Source of the DNA: a virus
DNA length: 21,318 bases
Virus record (IMG/VR): IMGVR_UViG_3300031659_002649
Coordinates: 1 to 21,318 of that record
Reading direction: 5' to 3' (one strand)
The stretch's first letter is position 1; every line of letters begins with the position of its first letter. Shown here in pieces: positions 6,570 through 21,145 of the stretch. Below the pieces are notes generated by a model. It saw only the letters and a list, made by a program, of their open reading frames with translations. It was not told where the DNA came from and did no database searches. Position numbers and translations under genes: made by a program.

Positions 6570-7004
6570 TTATTTCTTCCACTTATCTCTACCAACTAGT
6601 AAACCAATGATGCCGTAGTTAGCAATGTCTATAAAAGTATCTTCCATACCTTCGCCTTGAACATAATTTTTTCCATTAACCAATAAATTTCTTAAACGTG
6701 ATATTTTATCAGTTAATCTAATGGCTAACCCAGTTAATGAGAATTTCTTATCATCGCTGTTATTAACGATATCTCCGCCTAATGTTATATTATTTAAACC
6801 ATAGTCTAAATGTTTAGCCGCAAACATAACATACATTTCTTGTTGTATCTTAATAAATTCAACGCTTAAATCTGGGTATTCTTCCTCAAATTTATCTACT
6901 GCTGTTTTGTCTGGAATGAAACCACTAAAAGGCATTTTACCGCTTTTAGAATTCATAATTTCTCTATCGCTCATATCTTCGTGTTTTGTAACTGAACTAC
7001 CCAT
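6570..7004 (-). CDS. DUF1599 / Nmad1-like protein
   Basis: A 144-aa protein. The diagnostic part is AAKHLDYGLNNIT (residues ~57-70), then LAIRLTDKISRLRNLL (~93-108) and MEDTFIDIANYGIIGL (~120-136). This set (KxxDYG, RLxDKxSRLxNL, ExxxDTxxDxANY) matches DUF1599, named nucleotide modification associated domain 1. The family has an all-alpha fold related to MazG/dUTPase-type NTP pyrophosphatases, and the acidic ED and D residues would bind Mg-NTP. It might clear or supply unusual nucleotides for modified phage DNA. It overlaps the upstream 78-aa gene by 8 nt. Confidence 0.75.
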   Translation of the reverse strand: MGSSVTKHEDMSDREIMNSKSGKMPFSGFIPDKTAVDKFEEEYPDLSVEFIKIQQEMYVMFAAKHLDYGLNNITLGGDIVNNSDDKKFSLTGLAIRLTDKISRLRNLLVNGKNYVQGEGMEDTFIDIANYGIIGLLVGRDKWKK

Positions 7005-7233
7005 TCATCATTAATTTTTTAGATGGTGTTTTATAATACAAATTTAGACAAGTAATTCTGTCATCGGCATCAACTAACATTGAAAGTGCTTCCTCAGCAT
7101 TCTTATAATAATCCTCTGTTGAATGATCACCAATACCAACTCCTTTGTTACCTAATAAATCTAGTGATAGCAATGCTTTAGCTTTATCTGCTTCTGCAGA
7201 TGTCATAAACATATTGTATAATTCTTTTGTCAT
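6997..7233 (-). CDS. Hypothetical protein (78 aa)
   Basis: A 78-aa protein starting MTKELYNMFMTSAEADKAK, predicted mainly helical, with GNKGVGIGDHSTEDYY in the middle. No domain is recognised. Its ATG overlaps the stop of the gp62-like gene by 4 nt (ATGA) and its end overlaps the DUF1599 gene by 8 nt. It is therefore embedded in the clamp-loader operon and probably has a replication or nucleotide-related role, but nothing in the sequence states which. Confidence 0.7.
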   Translation of the reverse strand: MTKELYNMFMTSAEADKAKALLSLDLLGNKGVGIGDHSTEDYYKNAEEALSMLVDADDRITCLNLYYKTPSKKLMMNG

Positions 7234-7643
7234 TTTAATAATTGTTTAAGTTCTTTCTTTTCTATCCCCATACTTGTCAATATACGAATAATTTCACTGA
7301 TATCCAATACTTCTATGTATTCTTTTGTTTCTTTTGATGAACACTCCCAATAGTTCCTTAAATATACTATTAATTCAGGGTTTGCCTTTTTTGTCTTTGA
7401 TTTAACGTATTTATTCCATTTTTGATTTGTTGGAATATACTCTTTGTAAATATTATATATTTCCTTTTTATTTTGAGGTAAAATCGCTTGTGCTTCATTT
7501 ACTATTTCTAAATAATTAGGATCCATAGATATAAACCTATGTACCATATAGCTATTCCAAATGTCCCAATCCTTTTCGTTAAAAGAGGATACGGGACGTT
7601 TGTTATAGTTTATTTCTTTAAGCCAGTCAAAGATGCTATTCAT
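7230..7643 (-). CDS. 62: Clamp loader small subunit (T4 gp62-like)
   Basis: A 137-aa protein with MNSIFDWLKEINYNKRP at the start, WNSYMVHRFISMDP at residues ~29-42 and YNIYKEYIP at ~62-70. This pattern is typical of gp62-type clamp loader subunits of T4-like phages, which are shorter than the 187-aa T4 protein. gp62 has no ATPase site: it completes the 4:1 gp44/gp62 complex that opens the gp45 clamp. Its position just downstream of gp44, separated only by an 80-aa gene, supports the call. Its ATG is directly adjacent to the stop of that gene. Confidence 0.75.
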   Translation of the reverse strand: MNSIFDWLKEINYNKRPVSSFNEKDWDIWNSYMVHRFISMDPNYLEIVNEAQAILPQNKKEIYNIYKEYIPTNQKWNKYVKSKTKKANPELIVYLRNYWECSSKETKEYIEVLDISEIIRILTSMGIEKKELKQLLK

Positions 7644-7893: not shown

Positions 7894-8811
7894 TTATTTA
7901 TTATTAATTAAATTTTGAATTAAACTCATTAGGTTGATTTCTTTATCTATTCTAAAATTAGCCTTATATTGGTGGTCGTTTATTAAAATAGCTGCTGTAC
8001 CCTCTTTTCCAGGTAGAAATTTATCAGCATTATTATAAAAATATTTAAAAGCATCCTCAAAATCGTCAATGTTTGAATCCGCAATCGTTTGTCTAATAAC
8101 TTTAAATGATGGTTTTGGTTTTAAAAGTTCCACCCCAATAACATCCAAATAGTTAGTAGAAATTGTTAAAGAGTCGTCTAACTCTAACTTCCCGTCTTTA
8201 CTGCTTGTTTGAATCGTGTTAAGCATTTTACGTAAGTCTGGGTAGTATTGTTTTACAATTATACCAATGGCAGTAGGTTCGTATGTTATCGACTCTTGAT
8301 CACAAATACTAGCTAAATGGATTGCTATTTCTTTTTTAGTGGGTGGTACTATTTTTAATACTTGACACCTTGATTGTAAAGGATCTATAATACGTTCTAC
8401 ATAATTACAAGTTAGGATAAACCTAGTTGTACGTGAAAACGTTTCTATAATATTTCTAAGGGATGCTTGTGCTTGAATAGTAAGAAAATCGGCTTCATCT
8501 AAAATAACTACCTTAATTGGTTCAAATGAGGCTACTGATGCGAAAGTTGCTACTTTATCTCTAATTGTCTCTATACCACGCTCATCAGAAGCGTTAATAT
8601 ACATATAATCACACTTTAGATTTTTGACAATTAATTTTGCTAAAGTAGTTTTTCCAGTTCCTGCTGGGCCAAATAATAGATAATTTTGAATATCGTTTTG
8701 TTCTAATTGTTTAGCTATTGATTTTTTTAAGTGAGGATTACCCACATAAGTATCAAGAGTTATAGGTCGATATTTTTCATTAAATAGTGTATTAGAGTCC
8801 GAACTCACCAT
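7894..8811 (-). CDS. 44: Clamp loader large subunit (T4 gp44-like, RFC-type AAA+)
   Basis: A 305-aa AAA+ ATPase. It has the RFC-box start NEKYRPITLDTYVGN (residues 11-25), Walker A GPAGTGKT (48-55), Walker B VVILDEAD (101-108), sensor 1 FILTCNY (131-137) and the arginine-finger SRC motif QSRC (146-149). The length is close to T4 gp44 (319 aa). Four copies with one gp62 load the gp45 sliding clamp at primer ends. Its start overlaps the 89-aa gene by 20 nt in another frame, and the RFC box lies ten residues after the chosen ATG. Confidence 0.92.
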   Translation of the reverse strand: MVSSDSNTLFNEKYRPITLDTYVGNPHLKKSIAKQLEQNDIQNYLLFGPAGTGKTTLAKLIVKNLKCDYMYINASDERGIETIRDKVATFASVASFEPIKVVILDEADFLTIQAQASLRNIIETFSRTTRFILTCNYVERIIDPLQSRCQVLKIVPPTKKEIAIHLASICDQESITYEPTAIGIIVKQYYPDLRKMLNTIQTSSKDGKLELDDSLTISTNYLDVIGVELLKPKPSFKVIRQTIADSNIDDFEDAFKYFYNNADKFLPGKEGTAAILINDHQYKANFRIDKEINLMSLIQNLINNK

Positions 8812-9061
8812 AGATTGAATATTGTTTAATTGGTTCTGGTTTTACTTCTGATTCTGTTGTTGAGATTGCGTATAGTTCACTTTTTAAAGGGGCTAGTAAA
8901 TAGTCTCCTTTAAATCCTGTTTTTACCATATATGCTTCTAAACAATCAGTTAATGTTTTATGTATAGGTCCGTCTGGTTCGTTTGCAACTAGTCTCCAAC
9001 GATCTCCTGGTGCTTGTCTTCGAGCAATAAGAATATACTCATTTGTTATTATTTTTTCCAT
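8792..9061 (-). CDS. Hypothetical protein (89 aa), first gene of clamp-loader unit
   Basis: An 89-aa protein beginning MEKIITNEYILIARRQAPGD, with GDRWRLVANEPDG and IKQYSIYGEFGL at the C-terminus. No domain is recognised. The ATG lies only 3 nt after the promoter-like TTCGTATATTTAC motif, so if the motif is a -10-type element the mRNA would be nearly leaderless. The end overlaps gp44 by 20 nt, suggesting translational coupling to it. Confidence 0.72.
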   Translation of the reverse strand: MEKIITNEYILIARRQAPGDRWRLVANEPDGPIHKTLTDCLEAYMVKTGFKGDYLLAPLKSELYAISTTESEVKPEPIKQYSIYGEFGL

Positions 9062-9064
9062 GAT

Positions 9065-9077
9065 GTAAATATACGAA
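9065..9077 (-). promoter_or_regulatory. Putative promoter motif (TTCGTATATTTAC)
   Basis: The minus strand reads TTCGTATATTTAC, identical to the motif before the DNA polymerase gene (16998-17010). It sits between the terminator hairpin at 9086-9105 and the start of the 89-aa gene. This terminator-then-motif order marks a likely boundary between the chaperonin/histone and clamp-loader transcription units. Confidence 0.5.
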
Positions 9078-9085
9078 AAATAAAT

Positions 9086-9105
9086 GGGGGAACCTAAATT
9101 CCCCC
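9086..9105 (-). terminator. Rho-independent terminator after histone-like gene
   Basis: The minus strand has a perfect 7-bp stem GGGGGAA/TTCCCCC with a 6-nt loop (TTTAGG), followed by ATTTATTTTT. The G/C run stands out in this AT-rich sequence. It starts 7 nt downstream of the histone-like stop codon, so it should end the 107-aa/groES/groEL/histone transcript. Confidence 0.8.
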
Positions 9106-9112
9106 AATAAAT

Positions 9113-9280
9113 TTACTTAGATTCTGCTACAGATGCTTTCTTGTAATCTGTAATTACTCTCTTAATTGCTTGTGCCGCCTTTCTAGCACGTCCTTGACTT
9201 GCTTTTGTGGTTCCTACATGCTCTTCTGCTAAAATGTTGAAGTTCTCTTCAATAATTTCAAAAATTTCTTGTTTGTTCAT
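9113..9280 (-). CDS. Histone H1/Hc1-like small basic protein (55 aa)
   Basis: A 55-codon ORF from ATG 9280 to TAA 9113. An acidic helical N-terminus (MNKQEIFEIIEENFNIL) is followed by a basic part, TTKASQGRARKAAQAIKR, ending TDYKKASVAESK. The motif A-x-x-x-R-x-RKA-x-x-x-IK resembles the short Hc1/histone H1-like proteins widespread in Bacteroidota (typically ~58 aa with GNKAAGTRARK-type cores). It would bind DNA non-specifically. It follows groEL by 29 nt and precedes a strong terminator. This supports a Bacteroidota host, but identification rests on motif resemblance only. Confidence 0.62.
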   Translation of the reverse strand: MNKQEIFEIIEENFNILAEEHVGTTKASQGRARKAAQAIKRVITDYKKASVAESK

Positions 9281-9309
9281 TCTTTTATTTATTTATTAAT
9301 TATTAATTA

Positions 9310-10920
<1,611 letters not shown>

Positions 10921-10926
10921 AATTTT

Positions 10927-11241
10927 TTATTTTCCTTCTTCTGTTAATATTTCTTCTACCTTAGCTAATACTTGATTTTCAGGACCAATGTAATATTCTT
11001 CACCTTCAAATGGAAGCTTTGTAAATCCTTGTGTTGGTAGAACTACTTTATCCCCAATTTTTACTTGTGGTACTAACATTACTCCACTGATAGTGTATCT
11101 ACCAGGACCTACAGCGATAACTTCACCAAAGGTATTTGTGTCTTTCCCCATGTCTGGGACAATAATGTTACCATAAACCGTTTCTTCAGTTTCAATGGGT
11201 TTAACGATAACTGCATCATAAAATGCTACTAACTCTCTCAT
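10927..11241 (-). CDS. groES: GroES co-chaperonin (10 kDa subunit)
   Basis: A 104-aa protein of normal GroES length. It has the N-terminal strand FYDAVIVKPI, a mobile-loop region with GNIIVPD (canonical GGIVLP/GGIIIPD), and GEVIAVGPGR followed by VKIGDKVVLP, the standard beta-barrel motifs. The loop (TEETVYGNIIVPDMGKD) diverges from host-type loops, which may tune it to the phage GroEL encoded 6 nt downstream. Its start overlaps the preceding 107-aa gene by 26 nt. Confidence 0.92.
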   Translation of the reverse strand: MRELVAFYDAVIVKPIETEETVYGNIIVPDMGKDTNTFGEVIAVGPGRYTISGVMLVPQVKIGDKVVLPTQGFTKLPFEGEEYYIGPENQVLAKVEEILTEEGK

Positions 11242-11539
11242 CTACGTATTGTTTTAAATTATTACTCATTTGTTTGTAATTGTTGATATATTCTTCTAGA
11301 CTACTAAAATTCCCAGTATCTGATTTTAGAGATGCTATTTTCATTAAGGCTTGTTCCATTCTGGGGTAATAGTATAGAGACTTTTCATAAGTCTTAGCAG
11401 TTCCCTCTTTAGCTCTAAAGTGGTTAGCATCTGATGTTACATTTTGTTTTACTGCATAACTATACTCATCTTTAGTGATGAAATAAGGTTCCAGTAAAGG
11501 ATCAGAAATAGTGGTAATTGATTTACGTTTTGTAGTCAT
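11216..11539 (-). CDS. Conserved hypothetical protein upstream of groES (107 aa)
   Basis: A 107-aa protein beginning MTTKRKSITTISDPLLEPYF. It has YFITKDEYSYAVKQNV and YYYPRMEQALMKIASL and ends in a helical stretch (LEEYINNYKQMSNNLKQYVD). No enzymatic motif is seen. It is the first gene after the promoter motif at 11561-11573 and overlaps groES by 26 nt, so it is expressed with the chaperonin pair. It might be a chaperonin client or adaptor, but only its position suggests that. Confidence 0.75.
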   Translation of the reverse strand: MTTKRKSITTISDPLLEPYFITKDEYSYAVKQNVTSDANHFRAKEGTAKTYEKSLYYYPRMEQALMKIASLKSDTGNFSSLEEYINNYKQMSNNLKQYVDERVSSIL

Positions 11540-11560
11540 ATAACTGTTTTTATATTAGAC

Positions 11561-11573
11561 GTGAATATACGAA
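11561..11573 (-). promoter_or_regulatory. Putative promoter motif of chaperonin unit (TTCGTATATTCAC)
   Basis: The minus strand reads TTCGTATATTCAC, identical to the copy at 263-275. It lies 21 nt upstream of the 107-aa gene, in the gap after hsp20, and heads the 107-aa/groES/groEL/histone unit that ends at 9086-9105. Confidence 0.5.
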
Positions 11574-11610
11574 TAATATTGCGCTAGGACACGCTTTTTT
11601 GGTAAAACTT

Positions 11611-12027
11611 TTATTTTATTATAATTATTTTTGCTTTTTTAGATTCCGCGACTGGGATAAATAAATGGAGCAAACCATTTTTCATTTTTGCTTCTAATTT
11701 ATCGAGTTCGAATTTAGCTGCTACTTTATAACCTAAATTAAAAGATCGTTTAGATAATCCTTTATAGATGTATCCTGTATAATCTTCTTCTTCAGTTGGT
11801 TTATCGTAGATAATTTTTAAAAGATCCCCATCAATTTCTAATTGAATATCTTTTTTAGTTAGACCAGTACAGGCAACTTCAAAATGAAGCCCTTCATCGT
11901 CATAGTAAATATCTAGTGGGTGTGATTGTTTGCTTTCAAACGTAGTTGGTTGGAAAACGCCGTCTGCCTTGAAAAGGTTACGGAATAGTAAGTCGAACGG
12001 TGAACGTTCATTGGTTAATGTACTCAT
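11611..12027 (-). CDS. hsp20: Hsp20 / alpha-crystallin small heat shock protein
   Basis: A 138-aa small heat shock protein. A short N-terminal arm (PFDLLFRNLFKADG) is followed by an alpha-crystallin domain from about residue 38 (HPLDIYYDDEGLHFEVACTG) through LTKKDIQLEIDGDLLKI, YKGLSKRSFNL and LEAKMKNGLLHLFIP, the last being the conserved A-x-x-x-NGxL signature. It ends in KKAKIIIIK, including an I-x-I-type tail that caps neighbouring subunits. It should act as an ATP-independent holdase. Hsp20 genes also occur in T4-like cyanophages. The 85-nt leader holds a stable hairpin (12043-12057) and a promoter-like motif. Confidence 0.9.
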   Translation of the reverse strand: MSTLTNERSPFDLLFRNLFKADGVFQPTTFESKQSHPLDIYYDDEGLHFEVACTGLTKKDIQLEIDGDLLKIIYDKPTEEEDYTGYIYKGLSKRSFNLGYKVAAKFELDKLEAKMKNGLLHLFIPVAESKKAKIIIIK

Positions 12028-12042
12028 ATCATTTAGTTTTGT

Positions 12043-12057
12043 GAGGCCGAAGCTCTC
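12043..12057 (-). promoter_or_regulatory. Stable cUUCGg hairpin in hsp20 leader
   Basis: The minus strand reads GAGAGCTTCGGCCTC: a 5-bp stem with one bulged A, closed by a C(UUCG)G tetraloop, ending 15 nt before the hsp20 ATG. An alternative stem, CCGA/TCGG, overlaps it and is mutually exclusive. Such leader structures upstream of small heat-shock genes can act as RNA thermometers. Here there is no Shine-Dalgarno sequence to mask, so the function is open. Confidence 0.4.
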
Positions 12058-12111
12058 GGTTTATTTTTGTGAATATAACTGCGCGCCCTAGCTGCTGCAA
12101 TATTAAATTCT

Positions 12112-12125
12112 ATTATACGTATATA
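12112..12125 (-). promoter_or_regulatory. Putative hsp20 promoter motif (TATATACGTATAAT)
   Basis: An exact 14-base match to the element before the RHH gene (5568-5581), ending in TATAAT on the minus strand. It lies 84 nt upstream of the hsp20 ATG, just after the 2OG-oxygenase stop. A second, weaker element, TTATATTCAC, is at 12069-12078, nearer the gene. Confidence 0.48.
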
Positions 12126-12128
12126 AAA

Positions 12129-12767
12129 TTATTTCTTTGTATCAAAAAAGAATACTTGTGTTAACCTTGCGGTACTTACATCATGACCAAAATAAACAGG
12201 AGCAGCGTGACATAAGTTGGCATCCCAAATTACTAGTCTATTAAACACATTTCCTACCTTATCAACTTCAGAATATGGAGTTGAGTCTACAAAAGTATTT
12301 CCTTCGAATAATTTTAAATCTTCAGAATCATGTCTCGCTCCTGTTTTTGTATAAGCGTAGAATGAGGTACCCGCCTCGTAAGGTGCATTAGGGTTAAGAT
12401 ATATAGCACCCGCCCACATCTGATTATCAGCATGATATACAGCACTTATTCCTGCTTTATGAGATTGAAATCTCCCATTCATAGAATAATCTTCCCATTT
12501 TGTAATTTCTTTTCCTATAACCTCTTCAAAAAGTTCTTTTAAACCATCATAAAAATGTTGTTTTCTAGTTCTTAAACCTAAATACCCTTCATCATCATAA
12601 AACCATTGACTTAAGGCATAATCTCTAACTTTATGGGGGTCTTCAAATACATTATCAACTACAAAAAATCTTTTAGTAGTGGTTTTGCTTAGTGGAAATT
12701 CATTTGTTCTCCTAAACCCAAAATCTCCTTTAGGGTCGCTGTCTGAAAAATTAATCTGTTCTTTCAT
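12129..12767 (-). CDS. 2OG-Fe(II) oxygenase-like protein
   Basis: A 212-aa protein. The probable iron site is H-x-D in VYHADNQMWAG (residues ~115-125), followed by IYLNPNAP. The distal His is in RLVIWDANLCHAAP (~182-195), and an Arg about a dozen residues later (STARLTQVFFF) would bind the 2-oxoglutarate carboxylate. The order HxD...H...R and the double-stranded beta-helix-like pattern fit a 2-oxoglutarate/Fe(II) dioxygenase of the prolyl-hydroxylase type. The substrate is unknown: protein, nucleotide or small molecule are all possible. Its start overlaps the sliding-clamp gene by 17 nt, so it is tied to replication-gene expression. Confidence 0.72.
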   Translation of the reverse strand: MKEQINFSDSDPKGDFGFRRTNEFPLSKTTTKRFFVVDNVFEDPHKVRDYALSQWFYDDEGYLGLRTRKQHFYDGLKELFEEVIGKEITKWEDYSMNGRFQSHKAGISAVYHADNQMWAGAIYLNPNAPYEAGTSFYAYTKTGARHDSEDLKLFEGNTFVDSTPYSEVDKVGNVFNRLVIWDANLCHAAPVYFGHDVSTARLTQVFFFDTKK

Positions 12768-13488
12768 TTCTTGCTATATAGTAAGTGCTTGATATATTAT
12801 CAGATACAAATTCTAGTTTTACCATTCCCCTATCTGATAGTTTAAGGGTAGATGTTGTCATTTCTTTGTTTGAGTTCAATATTTCTTTAAATAAGTTAGC
12901 ATCAAAAGGTATTGGGGTACCTAATAAACCTTTATCAATTTTACCTTGAATCTTGTATTGGATTTTATTTGAATAATTATTCCCATCACCGAATGTAAAT
13001 TCACTTATTATATCCCCATCCTCATTATTAACAGCATTAAGGGTAAAGTAATTATAATCAGCTAGTGCATTTTTTGCTTTAATTAAACTATCCATATCAA
13101 CCGTAGTTAAATCTAATTCCATCTCCCAAGTTTCAGGATCATTATAAAATTTTATTTTAGGGATAATTAAAGGATCAGATAATGAGTAACTAACATCAAA
13201 CCCTAAATCCGCAATATTTAATTTTTGAGATAATGCCCCCTGTGTTTCACAGGTAACAAGTAACTCCCCACTAGTAATAGATATTAGTTTACTAAGTTTA
13301 TTTGTATCAAAAACACCCAATTCACTATCGGGTAATTCGAAGTCTTTTAACTCTACCTTACAGGCACGTCCTGATTCCCCAGCAAATACTGTTAAGGTAT
13401 TATCTTTGATTCTCCATTTTACTTGGTTAAATCTTCCATTTAAGTAATACTTTGAAATAAATGAAGCTAATAGGTTTTTATTTATCAT
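12751..13488 (-). CDS. 45: Sliding clamp (T4 gp45-like)
   Basis: A 245-aa protein, close to T4 gp45 (228 aa). It begins MINKNLLASFISKYYLNG and alternates strands and helices in two repeated domains. The stretches GVFDTNKLSKLISI and TPIPFDANLFKEILNS are the helix elements at equivalent positions of the two domains, as in PCNA-like clamps. A trimer would encircle DNA and tether the polymerase. The identity is supported by its place directly after the polymerase C-terminal half and its sharing a region with gp44/gp62 homologues. A CGTATATT motif lies 4 nt before the ATG. Confidence 0.82.
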   Translation of the reverse strand: MINKNLLASFISKYYLNGRFNQVKWRIKDNTLTVFAGESGRACKVELKDFELPDSELGVFDTNKLSKLISITSGELLVTCETQGALSQKLNIADLGFDVSYSLSDPLIIPKIKFYNDPETWEMELDLTTVDMDSLIKAKNALADYNYFTLNAVNNEDGDIISEFTFGDGNNYSNKIQYKIQGKIDKGLLGTPIPFDANLFKEILNSNKEMTTSTLKLSDRGMVKLEFVSDNISSTYYIARNERTD

Positions 13489-13492
13489 AGTT

Positions 13493-13504
13493 GTAATATA
13501 CGAA
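13493..13504 (-). promoter_or_regulatory. Putative promoter motif before clamp gene (TTCGTATATTAC)
   Basis: The minus strand reads TTCGTATATTAC, a version of the family motif one base shorter. It fills the 23-nt gap between the polymerase C-terminal gene stop and the clamp ATG. It would allow the clamp to be made at higher levels than the polymerase, as expected for a trimeric processivity factor. Confidence 0.42.
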
Positions 13505-13511
13505 GTTATTT

Positions 13512-14483
13512 TTATATTTCAAAAGAATCTAAAGCATTTACGTAAGGGTTTATATCAAAACTCCACTGTAAATCGCTAAAGAAACCTTCTAGTTTGTTTA
13601 AGAGTATAGACTCAAATATCATATTTCTGTCTGCAAATTTTGCTAAGAAGTCTTCTATTTTTTTAGGCATATCATATTCTAAAAAGGCAAGCGCTTCAAT
13701 CTTGTATGGGTTGTCTTTTAGATATACCCATTTAATTTTATCCGCATCTGTAATTAAATTGTGACTTCTATCTAATTCCCAAAATCTTAGTAAATCATTG
13801 TACTTAATAGACGCCCTAACTGAGGCTGGTGCTCCTTGTTTTCTATTTACACCAGGAGTCGTACTTGCTACTTGTATTATTTCTGTAAAAATCTCCCCTG
13901 CTCTTGGTTTACGGCCTGAGTATTTCCCTATTTTTTTAACGGATGTTGGGTTTCCTAGTTGTGATAATGAAATAGTACCATCTAATATTTTTTTCTTAAA
14001 TACCTTTACCTGTGAGATTATTACATCTTTTTGTTCACCCTTTAATACTTGATGTAGTATTTTATTAAAAAATTCCCCTAATATTGGTGGGAAATTAGCT
14101 TTCATAAATTCTAACCCTTTAATATCTAATGATTCTTTTGCAATACCTTCTACTTTTGTAATCCACTGAGCATACCTTCGTGTGTTTCTAAAATAGGCTG
14201 AACGGATAACAGCCTCAGTCTTCATTTCTAGTCTATGGGATTCAACGTTGAAACATTCTTTTGCTAATTTATCATAGTGCTCTGTAATGATATCTTGGTA
14301 TTTTAATGCTACTTTTTCTAATATATTATCCTTTTCAGTACCTTCGAATTCTTCAAAGTTAGGATATAAATGTAACAATAAGGGTTCAGCATTAAAGTAA
14401 TTAGAGTCGGTGTCGACGTAAGCACAATAGTTAACATCACCATCATCACAAATAAACCAAGGTGTTTCTTCTAAATATTTCAT
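13512..14483 (-). CDS. 43: Family B DNA polymerase, C-terminal fragment (T4 gp43-like, 43B)
   Basis: A 323-aa protein carrying the part of a T4-type polymerase missing from the 591-aa ORF upstream. Motif C is YVDTDS at residues 22-27 with catalytic D24 and D26 (canonical YGDTDS, so Gly is replaced by Val). The rest of the palm and the thumb follow, with IGKYSGRKPRAGEIFTEI and KIKWVYLKDNPYK. The extreme C-terminus, VNALDSFEI, resembles the clamp-binding peptide at the end of gp43. The two fragments total 914 aa, against 898 in T4. It must associate with the N-terminal fragment to polymerise. No intein-type Cys/Ser junction is present. Confidence 0.9.
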   Translation of the reverse strand: MKYLEETPWFICDDGDVNYCAYVDTDSNYFNAEPLLLHLYPNFEEFEGTEKDNILEKVALKYQDIITEHYDKLAKECFNVESHRLEMKTEAVIRSAYFRNTRRYAQWITKVEGIAKESLDIKGLEFMKANFPPILGEFFNKILHQVLKGEQKDVIISQVKVFKKKILDGTISLSQLGNPTSVKKIGKYSGRKPRAGEIFTEIIQVASTTPGVNRKQGAPASVRASIKYNDLLRFWELDRSHNLITDADKIKWVYLKDNPYKIEALAFLEYDMPKKIEDFLAKFADRNMIFESILLNKLEGFFSDLQWSFDINPYVNALDSFEI

Positions 14484-14866
14484 TAATATTCTTTGTATGA
14501 TTTTTCTTCTATTAAACCTGATGATGTTAAAATATTAATTAATTTTTTAACTTCACATCTCTTATCATTGGCAATATACACAGAACGAGCTAGTTCTACA
14601 AATTCTTTATCAAATATTTTTTCACGTTCGCAGTCTCTAATCCAATCCTCTATATCCCAAAGTTGGCTATTAATATGTGATAATTCAAGATAATGGTTTT
14701 GGAGTTGACCATCATGGTTTTCAAATAGTTCTTTAGCTAAAGGGTTTAAGGTATTAAATTCTTTGTGGATATTGACTAATTTTTCTTTATCCTCAATCAT
14801 TTCCATTTTTATTTCTAAAATTGAAATTTTATCTAATAATTCTCCGTTTGATACTTCTATTAACAT
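14483..14866 (-). CDS. DUF6165-like protein between polymerase halves
   Basis: A 127-aa helical protein. The start MLIEVSNGELLDKISILEIK and the segments QLWDIEDWIRDCE and FDKEFVELARSVYIANDKR match the pattern of the DUF6165 family (V-x-GE-x-x-DK-x-x-ILE-x-K ... LW-x-IED-x-IR ... FI-x-LAR-x-VY-x-xND). The function of the family is not established. It is often seen near glycan-related genes, from memory. Here it overlaps the 43B start by one base and lies between the two halves of the DNA polymerase. Confidence 0.68.
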   Translation of the reverse strand: MLIEVSNGELLDKISILEIKMEMIEDKEKLVNIHKEFNTLNPLAKELFENHDGQLQNHYLELSHINSQLWDIEDWIRDCEREKIFDKEFVELARSVYIANDKRCEVKKLINILTSSGLIEEKSYKEY

Positions 14867-14876
14867 ATGTTTAGTT

Positions 14877-15140
14877 TTAAAATGTTCTTTCTCCTGGGGT
14901 TTTGGCTACTGTTTTTGGTCTTTCTCCTTTAGAATCTACATCATTTCTTTCATCAAGGGTTACATTATACTTAACTCCAGCCACTTTAAACTCACCACCC
15001 TGTTTTATCATTTTTTTAAAAAAGTTTATTTGGGGTTCAGACCAACTTTCACTTCTTAAAATTAATTCCTCTTTGGGGATTGTTATACCTTCAGAGGTAA
15101 TATGTTGGTTTTTTCTAATAGATTGTTTTTTAAGTGCCAT
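14877..15140 (-). CDS. Hypothetical protein between polymerase halves (87 aa)
   Basis: An 87-aa basic protein beginning MALKKQSIRKNQHITSEG, with WSEPQINFFKKMIKQGGEF and GVKYNVTLDER in the middle and a polar tail (DSKGERPKTVAKTPGERTF). No family is recognised. The Lys/Arg content suggests nucleic-acid binding. It follows the palindromic patch at 15156-15181 and is the first gene inserted in the polymerase split. It has none of the motifs of HNH, GIY-YIG or LAGLIDADG homing endonucleases. Confidence 0.7.
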   Translation of the reverse strand: MALKKQSIRKNQHITSEGITIPKEELILRSESWSEPQINFFKKMIKQGGEFKVAGVKYNVTLDERNDVDSKGERPKTVAKTPGERTF

Positions 15141-15155
15141 AATATTATGTGATTT

Positions 15156-15218
15156 ATGCGCATTTTACGCGCGTTTAACGCATTACCTCTTGGTTTGCGC
15201 GGGTTTATATGTTTAACG
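15156..15218. repeat. Palindromic GC-rich patch with short direct repeat at polymerase break
   Basis: Three perfect or near-perfect palindromes are clustered: ATGCGCAT (15156-15163), ACGCGCGT (15167-15174) and GCGTTTAACGC (15171-15181). The octamer GTTTAACG occurs twice, at 15173-15180 and 15211-15218; the second copy spans the last codons of the polymerase N-terminal ORF. The CpG density contrasts with the AT-rich surroundings. It may be a scar or a recognition site of the event that split the polymerase, or a regulatory site for the 87-aa gene. Confidence 0.5.
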
Positions 15219-16980
15219 ATTCTTTAAATTCTTTTGATAACTCACCACTTCGCATAATTTTATTCATATGTCGATTTGCTGCTAATGCACTTTCTTGTAT
15301 AATCCGGTGACCTGATAATGTAATAGATTCACTTAAAATAGCATAATTCATACCATATCTAAATGAAGGTAGAGCAGTTGCACCATACAAACTATTTAAT
15401 AAAATTTTCATTGTATATTGCATCAAGTGGTAGTGTTCTCCTCCTTCTTTATCTCCTGATTTATATGCATCTTTCATTTTATTCTTATACATAACCCTTT
15501 CTGTAAACCATTTATTTAAAATAGTAGATAGTACTGATTCTTTACCTGTGGAGAAAAAAGCACCATTTGCTGCTACGGCATATTTACCTTTTTTAACTGC
15601 TTTAATAATTTTACCTACCTCCCAACGTTGTTGGATACCTGCTGTAGTTTCAAATATTAAGGGTTGTGTTGGATCCATAGCTAACAAATCATTTAATCCT
15701 AAACGATTGTTTCTATCTCCCCCCTCACTTGGGTCTATAATTCTACCAACATATGTTTCTTTACCTATATTAATAGTCATTATAATTGAAGGATATAGTG
15801 ATGTTAAATCTTCATCAAACATATACTTGTATAAACCTGCTGTAGGGCAAAATAACCAACCACCTGCATACCCTTGTTTCTTCTGTGGGTTTCTTTCTTT
15901 ATTATTTGGTATAATACCTTGGGATAACAAGTAAGCTGAAATTGCTCCGTCTTGGGTTACACTATTAAAATATACTTCACTATAATTGTGTTTACCCTTA
16001 TGGGAAATATTTTTTGTTAGTGCAAGGTATTGTAGTTTTTCATCTAATAGTTTTAGGATTTCTACATCTCGAAAGTTATATTCAACAAACTTATTGATAT
16101 CATCCTCATATAAGTCATTTAAGTTACCATCATATTCGATCTTTTTTACCCCAGTATATTTGTCCCCAATAGCATCTAGTTTCCAACTTGGTTCATCCTT
16201 CCAACTATATTTCTTATGTAAGCGAATGTAATCTAAAGACTCAATACCTTTAATCTCAATAAACATATTAGATTTATAAAAGTATTGACTATATTTTTTA
16301 GAAGTAACTGGTTCGTTTATAATACCATAAAGGGGAGACATTTGATCCGCAACGTCTTTACCACAGACATTACAAATTCTATAATAAGTGTAAGGGTTAT
16401 CAAAGTAATCACTATTATACCCAATCAAAATATCGGGTCTGATGTCTTGTATAATACCAACCCAATACATTAATAATTCAGCTTCAGTTTTAAAAGGTAA
16501 AACAACTTTTCCTTCTGTTTGTTTTGGTACTTTACCTTTAGGATCTAAAATTAAACACCCCCAACTATCCGACTGTTTGTGCCAAAATGCTATTGAGGTA
16601 ATAGGCATAGGGGCACTTGCTATATAATCTTCGGTTAATGCACCTCCTATCTCACATTCAATATCATAAAATAATTCCTGATGTCCAGTTGATGGTTTAT
16701 CATCAGTTCCATATTGTTCAATAAGGAATTTTTGATGGGTATTCATATCGTGGAAATGTAAGTTTGGTGTATTTTTTTCGGGTCTATTCCTGTTAAAAAA
16801 CCATTTAGAAGTTGGTCTTAAGTTTTCACCATTAATCCCCTGGCAAGTATAGCTGTTATCATCTTCGACATAAGCTATATCTTCGTAAGGGACAACCTTA
16901 TGTTCACCATCTGATTCCCACAAATGCATTTCCCATAAGTTGGTACCTAATTTTTTACCTTTATAACATTTTTTATACAT
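15205..16980 (-). CDS. 43: Family B DNA polymerase, N-terminal fragment (T4 gp43-like, 43A)
   Basis: A 591-aa fragment with the complete 3'-5' exonuclease and the first part of the polymerase domain. Exo I is LFYDIECE (D106, E108), Exo II is GYNSDYFD (D194), and Exo III is YNFRD (Y301, D305). Motif A is DLTSLYPS starting at D391. Motif B is KILLNSLYG (K525, N529, Y532). The ORF stops at residue 591, in the helix that should lead to motif C, which is encoded about 0.7 kb downstream in 43B. Split gp43 is known in some T4-like phages (43A/43B of Aeromonas phages). It is the first gene after a terminator and promoter motif. Confidence 0.93.
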   Translation of the reverse strand: MYKKCYKGKKLGTNLWEMHLWESDGEHKVVPYEDIAYVEDDNSYTCQGINGENLRPTSKWFFNRNRPEKNTPNLHFHDMNTHQKFLIEQYGTDDKPSTGHQELFYDIECEIGGALTEDYIASAPMPITSIAFWHKQSDSWGCLILDPKGKVPKQTEGKVVLPFKTEAELLMYWVGIIQDIRPDILIGYNSDYFDNPYTYYRICNVCGKDVADQMSPLYGIINEPVTSKKYSQYFYKSNMFIEIKGIESLDYIRLHKKYSWKDEPSWKLDAIGDKYTGVKKIEYDGNLNDLYEDDINKFVEYNFRDVEILKLLDEKLQYLALTKNISHKGKHNYSEVYFNSVTQDGAISAYLLSQGIIPNNKERNPQKKQGYAGGWLFCPTAGLYKYMFDEDLTSLYPSIIMTINIGKETYVGRIIDPSEGGDRNNRLGLNDLLAMDPTQPLIFETTAGIQQRWEVGKIIKAVKKGKYAVAANGAFFSTGKESVLSTILNKWFTERVMYKNKMKDAYKSGDKEGGEHYHLMQYTMKILLNSLYGATALPSFRYGMNYAILSESITLSGHRIIQESALAANRHMNKIMRSGELSKEFKESLNI

Positions 16981-16997
16981 ATAACCCTTTTATTTAT

Positions 16998-17010
16998 GTA
17001 AATATACGAA
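16998..17010 (-). promoter_or_regulatory. Putative DNA polymerase promoter motif (TTCGTATATTTAC)
   Basis: The minus strand reads TTCGTATATTTAC, identical to the copy at 9065-9077, and is followed by ATAAATA. It abuts the terminator hairpin 17010-17028 and lies 17 nt before the polymerase ATG. Confidence 0.52.
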
Positions 17011-17028
17011 GGCTCCCTACAGGAGCCT
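17010..17028 (-). terminator. Hairpin terminator after the MazG-like gene
   Basis: The minus strand has AGGCTCC, a 5-nt loop and GGAGCCT, a perfect 7-bp stem, 5 nt after the stop codon of the 186-aa gene. The downstream tract is only moderately T-rich because it is the promoter motif itself. It probably ends the queuosine/nucleotide operon. Confidence 0.6.
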
Positions 17029-17033
17029 AAGTT

Positions 17034-17594
17034 TTATATAATTGTTTCTGCTAGATAATTTTTAGCTAATTCATCAGTTGTAAAGAACTGGGTTAAATCA
17101 GGTCTGAAGTAATTTATATTTTTCATTACCTTCCTATCCCTTGTTCTATATACAACCCAATAATCACCTACTTTTTCAAGATGGCATGGCTCAGCTTGTT
17201 CTTTAGAGCGGAGGGTGATAGTCTCCAAGGCTTCTTCTTCAGTCTTACAAGATTTTGACATATTACTTGCTTGTACTTCTTGATACGCGGGCCATATCTT
17301 ATCCTTAAGACCATGTAACATAGTACCGTTCCCAGTGGTAACATAAGTAAGGTCACACAAAGCATCCAAAATTTCCACGATGTCTCCGTTTTCGCAAGCT
17401 TGTCTATATTCTTCAAGTTCCTCAAGTACAAAGTCGTATACAAATTGCCACTCTTTCTTTTCGGGTATGGTTGGTTCATAAGCATTTGGTTTACCGAATG
17501 TTTGATTAAATATTTCTACTTCATTAACAAAAGGCACGTCTGCGGATTTTGGTAAGTTTTTAAAACCAAAATCTAATTTTGTTTGTTTTCCCAT
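17034..17594 (-). CDS. MazG/HisE-like NTP pyrophosphohydrolase-domain protein
   Basis: A 186-aa protein. The core at residues ~45-110 has the pattern of all-alpha NTP pyrophosphohydrolases: VLEELEEYRQACENGD, the EExxE metal-binding helix, followed by EILDALCDLTYVTTGNG with the D-A-x-x-D acidic pair, and HGLKDKIWPAYQEVQASNMSK. It should hydrolyse a nucleoside triphosphate or a phosphoribosyl nucleotide to the monophosphate and PPi. The C-terminal part (~115-186) looks like a separate small domain (GDYWVVYRTRDRK). It is the last gene of its operon and overlaps the DUF4494-like gene stop by one base. Confidence 0.78.
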   Translation of the reverse strand: MGKQTKLDFGFKNLPKSADVPFVNEVEIFNQTFGKPNAYEPTIPEKKEWQFVYDFVLEELEEYRQACENGDIVEILDALCDLTYVTTGNGTMLHGLKDKIWPAYQEVQASNMSKSCKTEEEALETITLRSKEQAEPCHLEKVGDYWVVYRTRDRKVMKNINYFRPDLTQFFTTDELAKNYLAETII

Positions 17595-17794: not shown

Positions 17795-18352
17795 TTATTT
17801 ATTTAGTTTATTAGTATTTGTTTTGGGCATTGTTAACCCACCTATTAAATTTAAATCATCTCTTTCGTCCTGTCTTTCATCAGGTTCGTTTGCTAATAAC
17901 TCATTAGCCATTTCTAACCACTCGGGTATATCTAATTGTTCTTTACTTGTTGGGTTTACTAAATAATCTTGAATGGGTTTTGAATCGCTCATTTCCCATG
18001 GGTAAATAATCCACTCATCTCCTTCATGTATTTCAGACCATATATTAGGTTGAAAACATGATGTGTGAGGTTTATAATGTAGTACTGCTGTCCAAACACC
18101 TGGGGCTTTTTCTAATGTAACTCCTGAATCACATATATCATCAACTACTAGAGTATTAGGTAATACAACATCAGTATAAGGTAAACCTAATTTATGTGAT
18201 ATTAACACTGCTGGGATTAATCCTCCTCTAGCAATACCATGAACTGAATCTATGTTAGGTTGATCATGTCGAATTTTATTACATATATCATCAACCGCAT
18301 CATTTACATCATCCCAACTTAAAAATATTTTGTTATCTGTTTTTAATGCCAT
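17795..18352 (-). CDS. Phosphoribosyltransferase (purine-type PRTase)
   Basis: A 185-aa type I PRTase. GIARGGLIPAVLISHKLG (residues ~40-57) is the N-terminal nucleotide-binding strand and helix. LVVDDICDSGVTL (~88-100) is the PRPP-binding signature, with the acidic pair DD followed by DSG. The later EWIIYPWE motif resembles xanthine-guanine-type PRTases. It probably converts a purine base plus PRPP to the nucleotide. The hood region is short and the C-terminal ~45 residues are polar. It follows folE by 3 nt, so a link to guanine or deazaguanine nucleotide supply is possible, but the substrate cannot be read from sequence. Confidence 0.82.
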   Translation of the reverse strand: MALKTDNKIFLSWDDVNDAVDDICNKIRHDQPNIDSVHGIARGGLIPAVLISHKLGLPYTDVVLPNTLVVDDICDSGVTLEKAPGVWTAVLHYKPHTSCFQPNIWSEIHEGDEWIIYPWEMSDSKPIQDYLVNPTSKEQLDIPEWLEMANELLANEPDERQDERDDLNLIGGLTMPKTNTNKLNK

Positions 18353-18355
18353 AGT

Positions 18356-19054
18356 TTATATATTATGTCCCCCGTTATTAATTTTGATTGAATCAAAATA
18401 TTCCTTACGAGCTAAGTTAGTATTATCTTTAAATACACCTGATGCTTTAGTTGTAATCATTGAAGCACCTTGATGTTTTACACCTCTACAACTTACACAA
18501 TTATGTCCTGCTACTACCGTTACAATTACACCTTTATTACCCTCAGTAATTTTTTCTACTGCATTATGAATAGCGGATGTTAATTGTTCTTGTATCGCTC
18601 CTCTTCTACCAAATAACTCTACAATTCTATTTAATTTAGATAAACCAATTACTTGACCATCTTCTCCTGCTATGTAACCAATATGAACAACACCATCTAT
18701 TGTTTGATGATGATGAGAACACATTGAAGTTAATGGTATATTACGTTCTATAATAATACCATCATAACCATCTGATGGGAATGAAGTAATTGGAGACATT
18801 TGCGTGTATCTACCGGCCCATAAATCATTAACATATGCTTTAGCAACACGTTTAGGTGTTTCAGCTGAATTTGGGTCATTTTTCCAGTCACATCTTAATG
18901 CATCTAAAAACTTACCAAATGCTTCCGCCGCATCTTCAATCATTGCTAATTTTTGTTCATCATTAAATGGGAATCCGGGTGCAACACCATTTGCGAATCC
19001 CTCTTGTACCACCTCTAATTGTTCGTGGAGTTTTCTGCGTTTATTTTCTGACAT
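18356..19054 (-). CDS. folE: GTP cyclohydrolase I
   Basis: A 232-aa enzyme of normal FolE length. Family signatures are AETPKRVAKAYV (residues ~64-75), the zinc site MCSHHHQ with C112 and H115, VIGLSKLNRIVELFGRRGAIQEQLT (~135-159), and GHNCVSCRGVKHQGAS with the second zinc cysteine at C186 or C189. It converts GTP to 7,8-dihydroneopterin triphosphate, the substrate of QueD. With queE and queD in the same block it forms the first three steps towards 7-carboxy-7-deazaguanine. A folate role is the alternative, but no other folate genes are seen. Confidence 0.93.
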   Translation of the reverse strand: MSENKRRKLHEQLEVVQEGFANGVAPGFPFNDEQKLAMIEDAAEAFGKFLDALRCDWKNDPNSAETPKRVAKAYVNDLWAGRYTQMSPITSFPSDGYDGIIIERNIPLTSMCSHHHQTIDGVVHIGYIAGEDGQVIGLSKLNRIVELFGRRGAIQEQLTSAIHNAVEKITEGNKGVIVTVVAGHNCVSCRGVKHQGASMITTKASGVFKDNTNLARKEYFDSIKINNGGHNI

Positions 19055-19125
19055 ATAACTTAATTTTAATTTTAATTCTTTGTAACCATAACCTAAATAT
19101 AAATATATTCATCAGGATTTGGTTT

Positions 19126-19263
19126 TTAATTTTTTTCATTTATGAATTCTTCTATTTTATCGATTAAGACTAACACCTCGTCTGGTTCCATAGTTATAGC
19201 ACAACAGACGGTGATGTTATCTCTTATTTCCTCCAATATACGAAGAGCTTCTTGCTTATCCAC
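19126..19263 (-). CDS. Small acidic hypothetical protein (45 aa, GTG start)
   Basis: A 45-codon ORF from GTG at 19263 to TAA at 19126. The GTG shares its first base with the final G of the queE stop (TAGTG), so translation is probably coupled. The product begins (M)DKQEALRILEEIRDNIT and ends EVLVLIDKIEEFINEKN, with two acidic amphipathic helices and a CC pair between them. The only internal ATG would leave 21 residues. No family is recognised. Confidence 0.5.
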   Translation of the reverse strand: MDKQEALRILEEIRDNITVCCAITMEPDEVLVLIDKIEEFINEKN

Positions 19264-20051
19264 TAAACCTCTCTTTGGGATTCAAAAGCTATGATGTGAG
19301 GACGCCAAGTCATTCTGTAACCGTTATCCCTTACCCAATCAAATACCAAAGGGTAAGATTTAAATAATCCTTCTCTTGAATCACCTGCAGGCATAAACCA
19401 TACTTTATCTTGAGGTATATCCATAACTTTAATAAAAATTAGAATTTCTTCTAATGCCTTTTCATCTTTACCATCCCATACAGGTTTGATGTGGTAATCT
19501 GGGTGGTAAGACATCATGTTAGACATAGCTGTATAATTAAGTCTAAGCTTATTATGTCTATCAATCATTTTTTGGTCTGTGATAGCACCTTGAGGTGTTT
19601 CTACCCCAAGAACTGGAACAGAATTAGAAAACTTAGGGCTAATAGATAACAAATGAATAGGATAGTCAGTGGGGAGAAAATGAGATCCCTCAGTTTCGAT
19701 AGTAATAAATATACCATTCTCATGTGCAAAATGTGTTAATTCATTTACTAAAGCGGGGTGCATAGTAGGTGAACCACCTGTAAGCATCATCTCCTTTATA
19801 TGAGGATTATCTTCATATGCTTTAATAATGTCTTTAAAATTAAAATGTCCTTTTTCTGGATGGATTGAAGTATACCAGGAGTCACACCACCCACCAGCTC
19901 CAAAATAGCACCTATGAGTACATCCTGTAGTTCTTACAACTACTGTTGGATATCCTGCTCTTGAACCCTCGGATTGTACAGCTGTGTAAATTTCTACAAT
20001 AGGTAAATTCTTTTCGTAGTCTTCTATTCTTTTTAATTGTTTATGTTCCAT
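19263..20051 (-). CDS. queE: 7-carboxy-7-deazaguanine synthase (radical SAM)
   Basis: A 262-aa QueE. It has the substrate-binding start VEIYTAVQSEGSRAGYPT, the radical-SAM cluster cysteines C44, C48 and C56, MLTGGSPTMHP (the GGE-like SAM motif, with Ser replacing Glu), FITIETEGS, and a C-terminal WRPHIIAFESQREV resembling the family's RLHKLLF-type ending. The cysteines are spaced C-x3-C-x7-C rather than the usual C-x3-C-x2-C, because of the insert YFGAGGW. The enzyme rearranges 6-carboxy-tetrahydropterin to CDG. It lies between queD and folE. Confidence 0.88.
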   Translation of the reverse strand: MEHKQLKRIEDYEKNLPIVEIYTAVQSEGSRAGYPTVVVRTTGCTHRCYFGAGGWCDSWYTSIHPEKGHFNFKDIIKAYEDNPHIKEMMLTGGSPTMHPALVNELTHFAHENGIFITIETEGSHFLPTDYPIHLLSISPKFSNSVPVLGVETPQGAITDQKMIDRHNKLRLNYTAMSNMMSYHPDYHIKPVWDGKDEKALEEILIFIKVMDIPQDKVWFMPAGDSREGLFKSYPLVFDWVRDNGYRMTWRPHIIAFESQREV

Positions 20052-20086
20052 AAATTTTTTTAAGTGGTTGTTTATTCACTATTATA

Positions 20087-20554
20087 CTAATCTTCTACGT
20101 AATAGGCAGCATTTTTACCATGCTCCATAAATTTAACTTTAATAACTTTTACACGATTAAATGTTTCTGCTTTAACAAATACATTTAATTTATCATAAAT
20201 ATACTTAGCAAAACTTTCTGCTCCCGTAGCAGGGATTATTCTTACTTGTGCTACACCTACGGCATCCATTTGTTTAAAGGCTTCTAAGTCTGGGTCATCT
20301 TCGGCTATAATCATAGTATGATCAAACATATGATCCATCCATATCTTAGGTTGTTTACCATCAATTAAGGTCTTAGCCCTTTTCATTCCTCCGAAATCCC
20401 AGACCCAATTACGATCATCTAATTCACCTTCGAAGTAAACCTTAAATGAAATACCATATCCATGTACAAATCTACAATGTGTGTTTTCTGCTTTCCATTG
20501 ACGAAACACTGTACTAAAACCGTCAAATACTTTACTTGATTGAAATTTACCCAT
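20087..20554 (-). CDS. queD: 6-carboxy-tetrahydropterin synthase-like
   Basis: A 155-aa member of the QueD/PTPS family. NTHCRFVHGYGISFKV (residues 24-39) corresponds to the catalytic Cys (C27) and zinc HGH motif; VWDFGGMK (51-58), MFDHTMI with D78-H79, ATGAESFAKYIYDKLN (109-124) and KFMEHG with E144 follow. HGH is HGYG here, and the N-terminal FSAAH motif is replaced by FSTVF, so two of the three canonical zinc histidines are absent. I recall similar HGY-type proteins in marine bacteria, so it may be a distinct subfamily. It would use FolE's product. Its start overlaps the thioredoxin gene by 8 nt. Confidence 0.82.
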   Translation of the reverse strand: MGKFQSSKVFDGFSTVFRQWKAENTHCRFVHGYGISFKVYFEGELDDRNWVWDFGGMKRAKTLIDGKQPKIWMDHMFDHTMIIAEDDPDLEAFKQMDAVGVAQVRIIPATGAESFAKYIYDKLNVFVKAETFNRVKVIKVKFMEHGKNAAYYVED

Positions 20555-20970: not shown

Positions 20971-20986
20971 AACTTTTTAATTTTAG

Positions 20987-21058
20987 TTGTCTCACTAGGA
21001 CTCGAACCTAGACTAACAGTACCAAAAACTGTAGTGCTACCAATTACACCATGCGACA
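20987..21058 (-). tRNA. tRNA-Gln (TTG)
   Basis: A cloverleaf folds on the minus strand. The acceptor is TGTCGCA/TGAGACA (six pairs and one G-A mismatch at the fifth position), and the D-arm is GTGTAATTGGTAGCAC. The anticodon stem ACAGT/ACTGT has loop TTTTGGT, giving anticodon TTG. The T-arm is CTAGG-TTCGAGT-CCTAG. The discriminator is A, and CCA is not encoded. The anticodon identifies Gln (CAA). Confidence 0.88.
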
Positions 21059-21063
21059 TTTAG

Positions 21064-21145
21064 CGGAGAGGACAGGATTCGAACCTGCAAAGCTTTTACA
21101 CCCGACGGATTTCAAATCCGTTTGACAACCATTGTCCACCTTTCC
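21064..21145 (-). tRNA. tRNA-Ser (TGA)
   Basis: A cloverleaf on the minus strand. The acceptor is GGAAAGG/CCTCTCC (one A-C mismatch at the fourth pair). The anticodon stem ACGGA/TCCGT has loop TTTGAAA, anticodon TGA. A long variable arm (CGGGTGTAAAAGCTTT), as expected for class II tRNA-Ser, precedes the T-arm GCAGG-TTCGAAT-CCTGT. The discriminator is G and CCA is not encoded. It lies 5 nt from tRNA-Gln. Confidence 0.88.

Follow-up and report, generated by a model that had tools for sequence, protein, structure and literature searches.

The window analyzed here is the 21,318-nucleotide stretch (positions 1 to 21,318) of IMG/VR virus record IMGVR_UViG_3300031659_002649, in which a T4 gp43-type family-B DNA polymerase is encoded by two genes, 43A and 43B. 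The break lies between catalytic motifs B and C, and comparison of sequences across relatives indicates a split that is real, ancient, and clade-wide. By precedent and conservation, the two products would form an active two-chain replicative polymerase, a reading to which we assign a probability of about 85%. A polymerase cut through its catalytic palm and stable in this form throughout a clade would amount to a natural experiment, with an essential single-chain enzyme becoming and staying two-subunit.

Organization of the split polymerase locus

Essentially every gene of this 21.3-kb record is on the minus strand, and the order of transcription is 43A, a noncoding spacer of 64 nucleotides, u87, a DUF6165 gene, 43B, and a gene of 245 amino acids (aa). 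The N-terminal half, 43A (positions 15205 to 16980, 591 aa), carries Exo I (residues 106 to 108), Exo II (188 to 194), and Exo III (301 to 307) together with motif A (389 to 398) and motif B (525 to 533). The C-terminal half, 43B (positions 13512 to 14483, 323 aa), holds motif C, YVDTDS, at residues 22 to 27 and the thumb. The interval between them, referred to as the seam, consists of the spacer (positions 15141 to 15204, from the 43A stop to the u87 start), the 87-aa gene u87 without assigned function (positions 14877 to 15140), and the DUF6165 gene (positions 14483 to 14866, 127 aa, Pfam DUF6165 at an E value of 1.6e-15), whose stop codon and the start codon of 43B have a single base in common (TAATG).

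A preliminary description of this DNA, made from the letters alone, had given the same coordinates, strand, and lengths for these four open reading frames (ORFs) and the same distribution of motifs, which the motif search reproduced. Its 87-aa ORF of unknown nature and its DUF6165-like gene between the halves were also recovered, u87 having no match in Pfam or PHROG. Pfam matched 43A to DNA_pol_B (2.8e-22) and exo1 (5.5e-14) and gave no match for 43B.

Position of the break in the palm

Both halves matched the PHROG profile phrog_262 (856 positions) in adjoining parts, 43A at positions 26 to 568 and 43B at positions 565 to 848, so no conserved part of the polymerase is lost. Profile homology extended over the entire length with Exo I to III and motifs A, B, and C in order, as in T4 gp43-like polymerases. 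43A aligned to RB69 gp43 as far as residue 609. The best matches of 43B in a profile search of the PDB were to RB69 gp43 (E value, 2.1e-17) and joined near residues 607 to 610, and RB69 gp43 was also retrieved by a Foldseek fold search (E value, 1.4e-07). Motif C of 43B corresponds to the hairpin at residues 621 to 623 of RB69 gp43, and the cut maps to residues 609 to 620, approximately, which by this alignment is the loop that connects the palm helix following motif B to the hairpin of motif C.

Between the final helix residue of 43A that could be aligned and the motif C aspartate of 43B there are approximately 38 residues in the window versus approximately 11 in RB69. The protein seam thus exceeds that of intact enzymes, by approximately 27 residues relative to RB69, the added parts being the 43A tail and the 43B head. 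The preliminary description had held that little or nothing was missing and had recommended an alignment to intact gp43; the tiling of phrog_262 agrees with the former, and the RB69 alignment added the approximately 27 extra residues.

Distribution of the split among relatives

Scans of IMG/VR retrieved relatives of both halves, at least 248 for 43B and at least 321 for 43A. Among 186 distinct junctions sampled from these relatives, 149 contained u87, 27 were pure ATGA overlaps, and 10 were of other kinds. No fused polymerase occurred in this sample (0/186), nor in a later scan of deeper relatives. A tree of 148 polymerases separated all 145 split rows from the remaining three, which are intact (Microcystis phage Mel-JY01 and two relatives), and the simplest reading of these sequences is that the split arose once, at the root of the clade. 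The split, its position, and its conservation are established by this sampling, and the lack of refusion applies to the sampled junctions. The supposition of the preliminary description that the split was true and not an assembly error was borne out by the junctions and the clade of 145 rows, and the search for relatives that it had proposed found the gene split at every sampled junction.

New tails at the junction of the halves

The 43A C-terminus is an unusual tail, SGELSKEFKESLNI. The 43B product starts with an N-terminal head, MK(H/Y)LE(E/D)TPW(W/F)ICD, which is conserved in relatives and absent from intact enzymes, including the Mel-JY01 homolog. The head was nearly invariant in 118 rows (P8, 118/118; W9, 114/118; I11, 114/118), and the ratio of nonsynonymous to synonymous substitution rates was approximately 0.19 in 43B codons 1 to 11 versus approximately 0.16 in codons 24 to 60, the compared pairs not being independent. 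The constraint on this new head is established. Its sequence suggests a docking segment that the split made necessary, and the 43A tail and the 43B head probably form or stabilize the subunit interface.

Proposed two-chain enzyme

In the proposed enzyme, two polypeptides of the gp43 type would assemble without splicing. 43A would supply the proofreading exonuclease, the fingers, and the part of the palm with motifs A and B, and 43B would supply the thumb and the palm hairpin that bears the aspartates of motif C. The cut after motif B would thus leave each chain to contribute a share of the metal-binding carboxylates, those of motif A from 43A and those of motif C from 43B. Both genes belong to one operon, frequent stop-start overlaps being suited to translational coupling, and the seam is a tolerated site at which small genes are gained and lost. 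A precedent is given by Aeromonas phage 25, in which the halves of the polymerase copurify and show polymerase activity (PMC2988022).

Several points weigh against this enzyme. We infer its assembly and activity, as well as the role of the tails, from sequence and precedent. The structural models are of single chains, and in the 43B model the head is disordered (predicted local distance difference test score [pLDDT] below 50), an outcome consistent with a requirement for 43A but no proof of one. In favor of the two-chain reading, no other family-B polymerase was found in eight relatives of 87 to 170 kb, and none of them had a family-A match above the Pfam cut-off, although these genomes are incomplete.

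Gene content of the seam

Clustering of the seam ORFs from 405 loci, many of which overlap on shared contigs, yielded 27 families. The most frequent were u87 (382 loci), DUF6165 (169 loci), a mannose-6-phosphate isomerase-like cupin (78 loci), a short gene without known family (60 loci), and a cytidylyltransferase (53 loci). Rarer seam genes encode a DegT aminotransferase, a GNAT protein, a methyltransferase, a formyltransferase, an NAD-epimerase, a dTDP-sugar epimerase, and a pyridoxal phosphate-dependent enzyme, and many of the seam genes are typical of nucleotide-sugar or glycan pathways. Seams with inserts usually hold one to six genes, u87 nearly always among them.

At the 27 junctions without any gene between the halves, 43A ends and 43B begins within the same four bases, ATGA, and no residues are lost. 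Many relatives lack an insert and yet are split, so the seam contents are not required to keep the gene split; in principle, a small frame-changing mutation could rejoin insert-free halves. The two unrelated inserted genes of the preliminary description are thus present in the window but unnecessary for the split and subject to free turnover, with the qualification that u87, found at the junction in most relatives, is no random insert; DUF6165 is optional cargo. This changing gene content permits testing whether inserted genes cause splits or splits merely tolerate them.

Among six large relatives, u87 occurred as a single copy wherever it was present, and a search of two insert-free relatives (100 and 110 kb, incomplete contigs) did not recover it. 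This makes it at most an accessory, and the role of an obligate third subunit was rejected on the same ground. No phage match was obtained for u87. Its AlphaFold model (pLDDT, 73) gave no match to the PDB at an E value of ≤0.001, with Z scores of at most 2.6, and a winged-helix-like order of its elements was considered but found no support. In some deep branches (loci L527, L543, and L548), a 71-aa gene with the start LDLHGV.H, Smr-like by eye, stands in place of u87.

The spacer at positions 15141 to 15204 (minus strand) holds a strongly conserved noncoding GC-rich element before u87, TTAAACGCGCGTAAAATGCGCATAAAT, with the conserved form GCGTTAAACGCGCGTAAAATGCGCATAAAT and three GCG..TAAA-like repeats approximately 10 bases apart. 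The element was seen at the same place in 52 overlapping relative loci, from which 16 distinct sequences were aligned, and had no Rfam match. Its sequence is compatible with a possible protein-binding or leader element. A broader reading, in which u87 is a polymerase-associated protein (a dispensable third subunit or a regulator of the 43A:43B pair), the seam is a long-lived site for accessory cassettes, and the noncoding element sets the dose of the halves, is considered unlikely.

Origin of the split

Two routes to the split were weighed. In one, an undivided gene 43 was split in the motif B to motif C interval by an invading homing endonuclease, which subsequently disappeared or gave way to other genes, leaving the junction in the window as a scar. 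Two endonuclease-like families occur among the seam genes, GIY-YIG in loci L495, L496, L625, and L626 and HNH with a treble-clef zinc finger in loci L643, L645, and L646, and their genes lie exactly at the 43A/43B seam (e.g., L625, positions 6701 to 7375, for GIY-YIG; L645, positions 6748 to 7521, for HNH). The preliminary description had seen no homing endonuclease motifs; this is right for the 43A-43B gap of the window, where none was found, but does not extend to the gaps of these few relatives. The window tail EFKESLNI resembles the alternative 43A tail of endonuclease-bearing loci (FKEEFLNSL and TKDFLENL), which hints, and no more, that the window junction once held an endonuclease. The seg43 case of Aeromonas phages carries the same uncertainty over the order of events (PMC2988022). 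Against this route, endonucleases are rare (9/405 overlapping loci, two families), the same tail type also occurs without an endonuclease (L145, L647, and L655), and the ancestral state of the junction is not resolved by the tree. Endonuclease invasion is a possible origin, short of a probable one.

In the other route, a frameshift or a new stop-start (ATGA) divided the intact gene without any insertion, and genes were inserted afterwards. The 27 distinct junctions at which the 43A TGA overlaps the 43B ATG with no residues lost fit such an event, and insert-free rows looked basal in the first tree. With wider sampling, however, rows with u87 appeared on deep branches, and starred branches force a minimum of seven separate changes for the insert-free state, so that this state may be a product of repeated loss; the insert-free ATGA form was accordingly withdrawn as the ancestral one. 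Some loci have the 43A stop overlapping the start of u87; there, a deletion of u87 from one start codon to the next would restore ATGA with 43B, which may explain why the insert-free state recurs. A division without insertion is entertained here tentatively. A −1 frameshift at the ATGA junctions was also considered and rejected: no classical slippery heptamer was seen by eye, and the process is impossible where genes intervene.

That the halves are rejoined by RNA or protein splicing is very improbable. Introns or inteins are found in phage polymerase genes elsewhere, including those of Jug phages (PMC12363816), the split intein of MIJ3 (PMC6892783), and the apparent inteins of LR756508. In the window, the absence of intein residues noted in the preliminary description was upheld, and no intron was found: Rfam gave no match at an E value of ≤1 over positions 13400 to 17100, nor at the gathering threshold, and the Pfam search gave no intein domain. 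The start of 43B lies only 21 to 23 residues before motif C, which is too short for the C-terminal part of an intein, and insert-free relatives have no room for an intron. An assembly or sequencing artifact or a dying pseudogene, in favor of which nothing was found, has next to no likelihood, given the same break in many independent assemblies, purifying selection, and intact catalytic motifs.

Comparison with other split polymerases

In the Aeromonas T4-like phages 25, 44RR, and Aes007, as in the window, a T4-type family-B polymerase is encoded in two genes, motifs A and C are on different chains, and other DNA lies between the halves. The likeness drawn in the preliminary description does not go further. 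Aes007 is broken ahead of motif B, at a point near window residue 505, so that its motif B is in 43B, and an HNH endonuclease gene lies between; the window breaks after residue 577, approximately, and after motif B, placing the Aeromonas break approximately 85 residues earlier. In the window, motif B is not on the C-terminal protein, and u87 and DUF6165 stand in place of an endonuclease or untranslated sequence. The cause of the split in phages 25 and 44RR was left open in a review (PMC2988022).

Rhodothermus phage RM378, the Far-T4 reference isolate, is likewise T4-like, has a Bacteroidota-related host, and encodes its polymerase in two genes, but its break falls where the exonuclease meets the polymerase domain, a single 522-aa protein carries motifs A, B, and C, and the genes are approximately 57 kb apart. 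It was rejected as the same split because its break lies elsewhere. The uncultured huge phage LR756508 (L002, positions 9001 to 16880) resembles the window in an interruption between motifs B and C, but approximately 3 kb of other genes lie between its ORFs, and its sequence shows apparent inteins at motifs B and C. Its polymerase groups with the intact Mel-JY01-type enzymes, and it was rejected as the same split; its interruption is probably an independent event, a split shared with the window clade and later fused again in Mel-JY01 being a conceivable alternative. Mel-JY01 itself is the closest annotated phage homolog (33% and 31% identity) and has one intact 848-aa polymerase ORF.

Pseudomonas jumbo phage MIJ3 also has a family-B polymerase in two ORFs, but with a split intein and an HNH endonuclease between, so its halves can be spliced (PMC6892783). 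Polymerase genes are split by endonuclease sequences in Jug phages (PMC12363816) and around a small unknown ORF in OM43 phages (PMC10580990). No description of a break between motifs B and C as found here was encountered in the literature, mostly open-access papers, and the searched PubMed Central papers on Far-T4 and Bacteroidetes T4-like genomes were silent on any split polymerase. The site of the break is unlike those of the described phage splits that were found and provides a defined position at which split family-B polymerases could be engineered.

Host and lineage

The window flanks are syntenic with Flavobacterium phage vB_FspM_immuto, with identities of 80% for QueE, 76% for pyrophosphohydrolase, 70% for the QueD-like protein, 63% for GTP cyclohydrolase, and 59% for GroEL. 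The window itself has no gp23; the capsid protein of relative L566 is 59% identical to that of immuto and 35% to that of RM378. This synteny and the L566 capsid place the record with the Far-T4/immuto-like phages of Bacteroidota. Four loci had matches in bacterial genome assemblies, of which three are labeled as Flavobacteriaceae metagenome-assembled genomes. The gene content also fits Far-T4 clade 1, with queuosine genes, GTP cyclohydrolase, phosphoribosyl transferase, and a heat-shock protein (PMC4360716). The Bacteroidota host suspected in the preliminary description is thus well supported by sequence comparison for this record, though not proven, and the large split-bearing clade comprises marine, uncultured phages of the T4-like type that probably infect Flavobacteria. 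Where the window has the split family-B enzyme, between the flanking genes common to both, immuto encodes a family-A polymerase of 777 aa (L576, NC_055915, positions 37898 to 40231), and neither half of the split enzyme nor the clamp loader had a match in the first 100 kb of immuto.

Neighboring genes

The 245-aa gene directly after 43B (positions 12751 to 13488, minus strand) had no PDB match by sequence and is probably a sliding clamp, a guess from its position; its homolog likewise comes after the polymerase in Mel-JY01. A gp44-like clamp-loader ATPase (positions 7894 to 8811, minus strand; phrog_168, 2.7e-76) belongs to the same replication cluster. Further genes, all on the minus strand, include an HNH endonuclease-like gene at positions 586 to 1200 (phrog_14736, 6.9e-09), approximately 13 kb from the split and 42% identical to an immuto HNH gene, and phage-encoded GroEL, GroES (Cpn10), and Hsp20 genes at positions 9310 to 12027. 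Genes of 7-deazaguanine/queuosine type (phosphoribosyl transferase, GTP cyclohydrolase, QueE-like, and QueD-like) occupy positions 17795 to 20554; since immuto additionally has a DNA guanine transglycosylase, the DNA may be modified. Genes for tRNA-Gln and tRNA-Ser are located at positions 20986 to 21145, and immuto has tRNA-Ser, tRNA-Glu, and tRNA-Gln at a comparable place.

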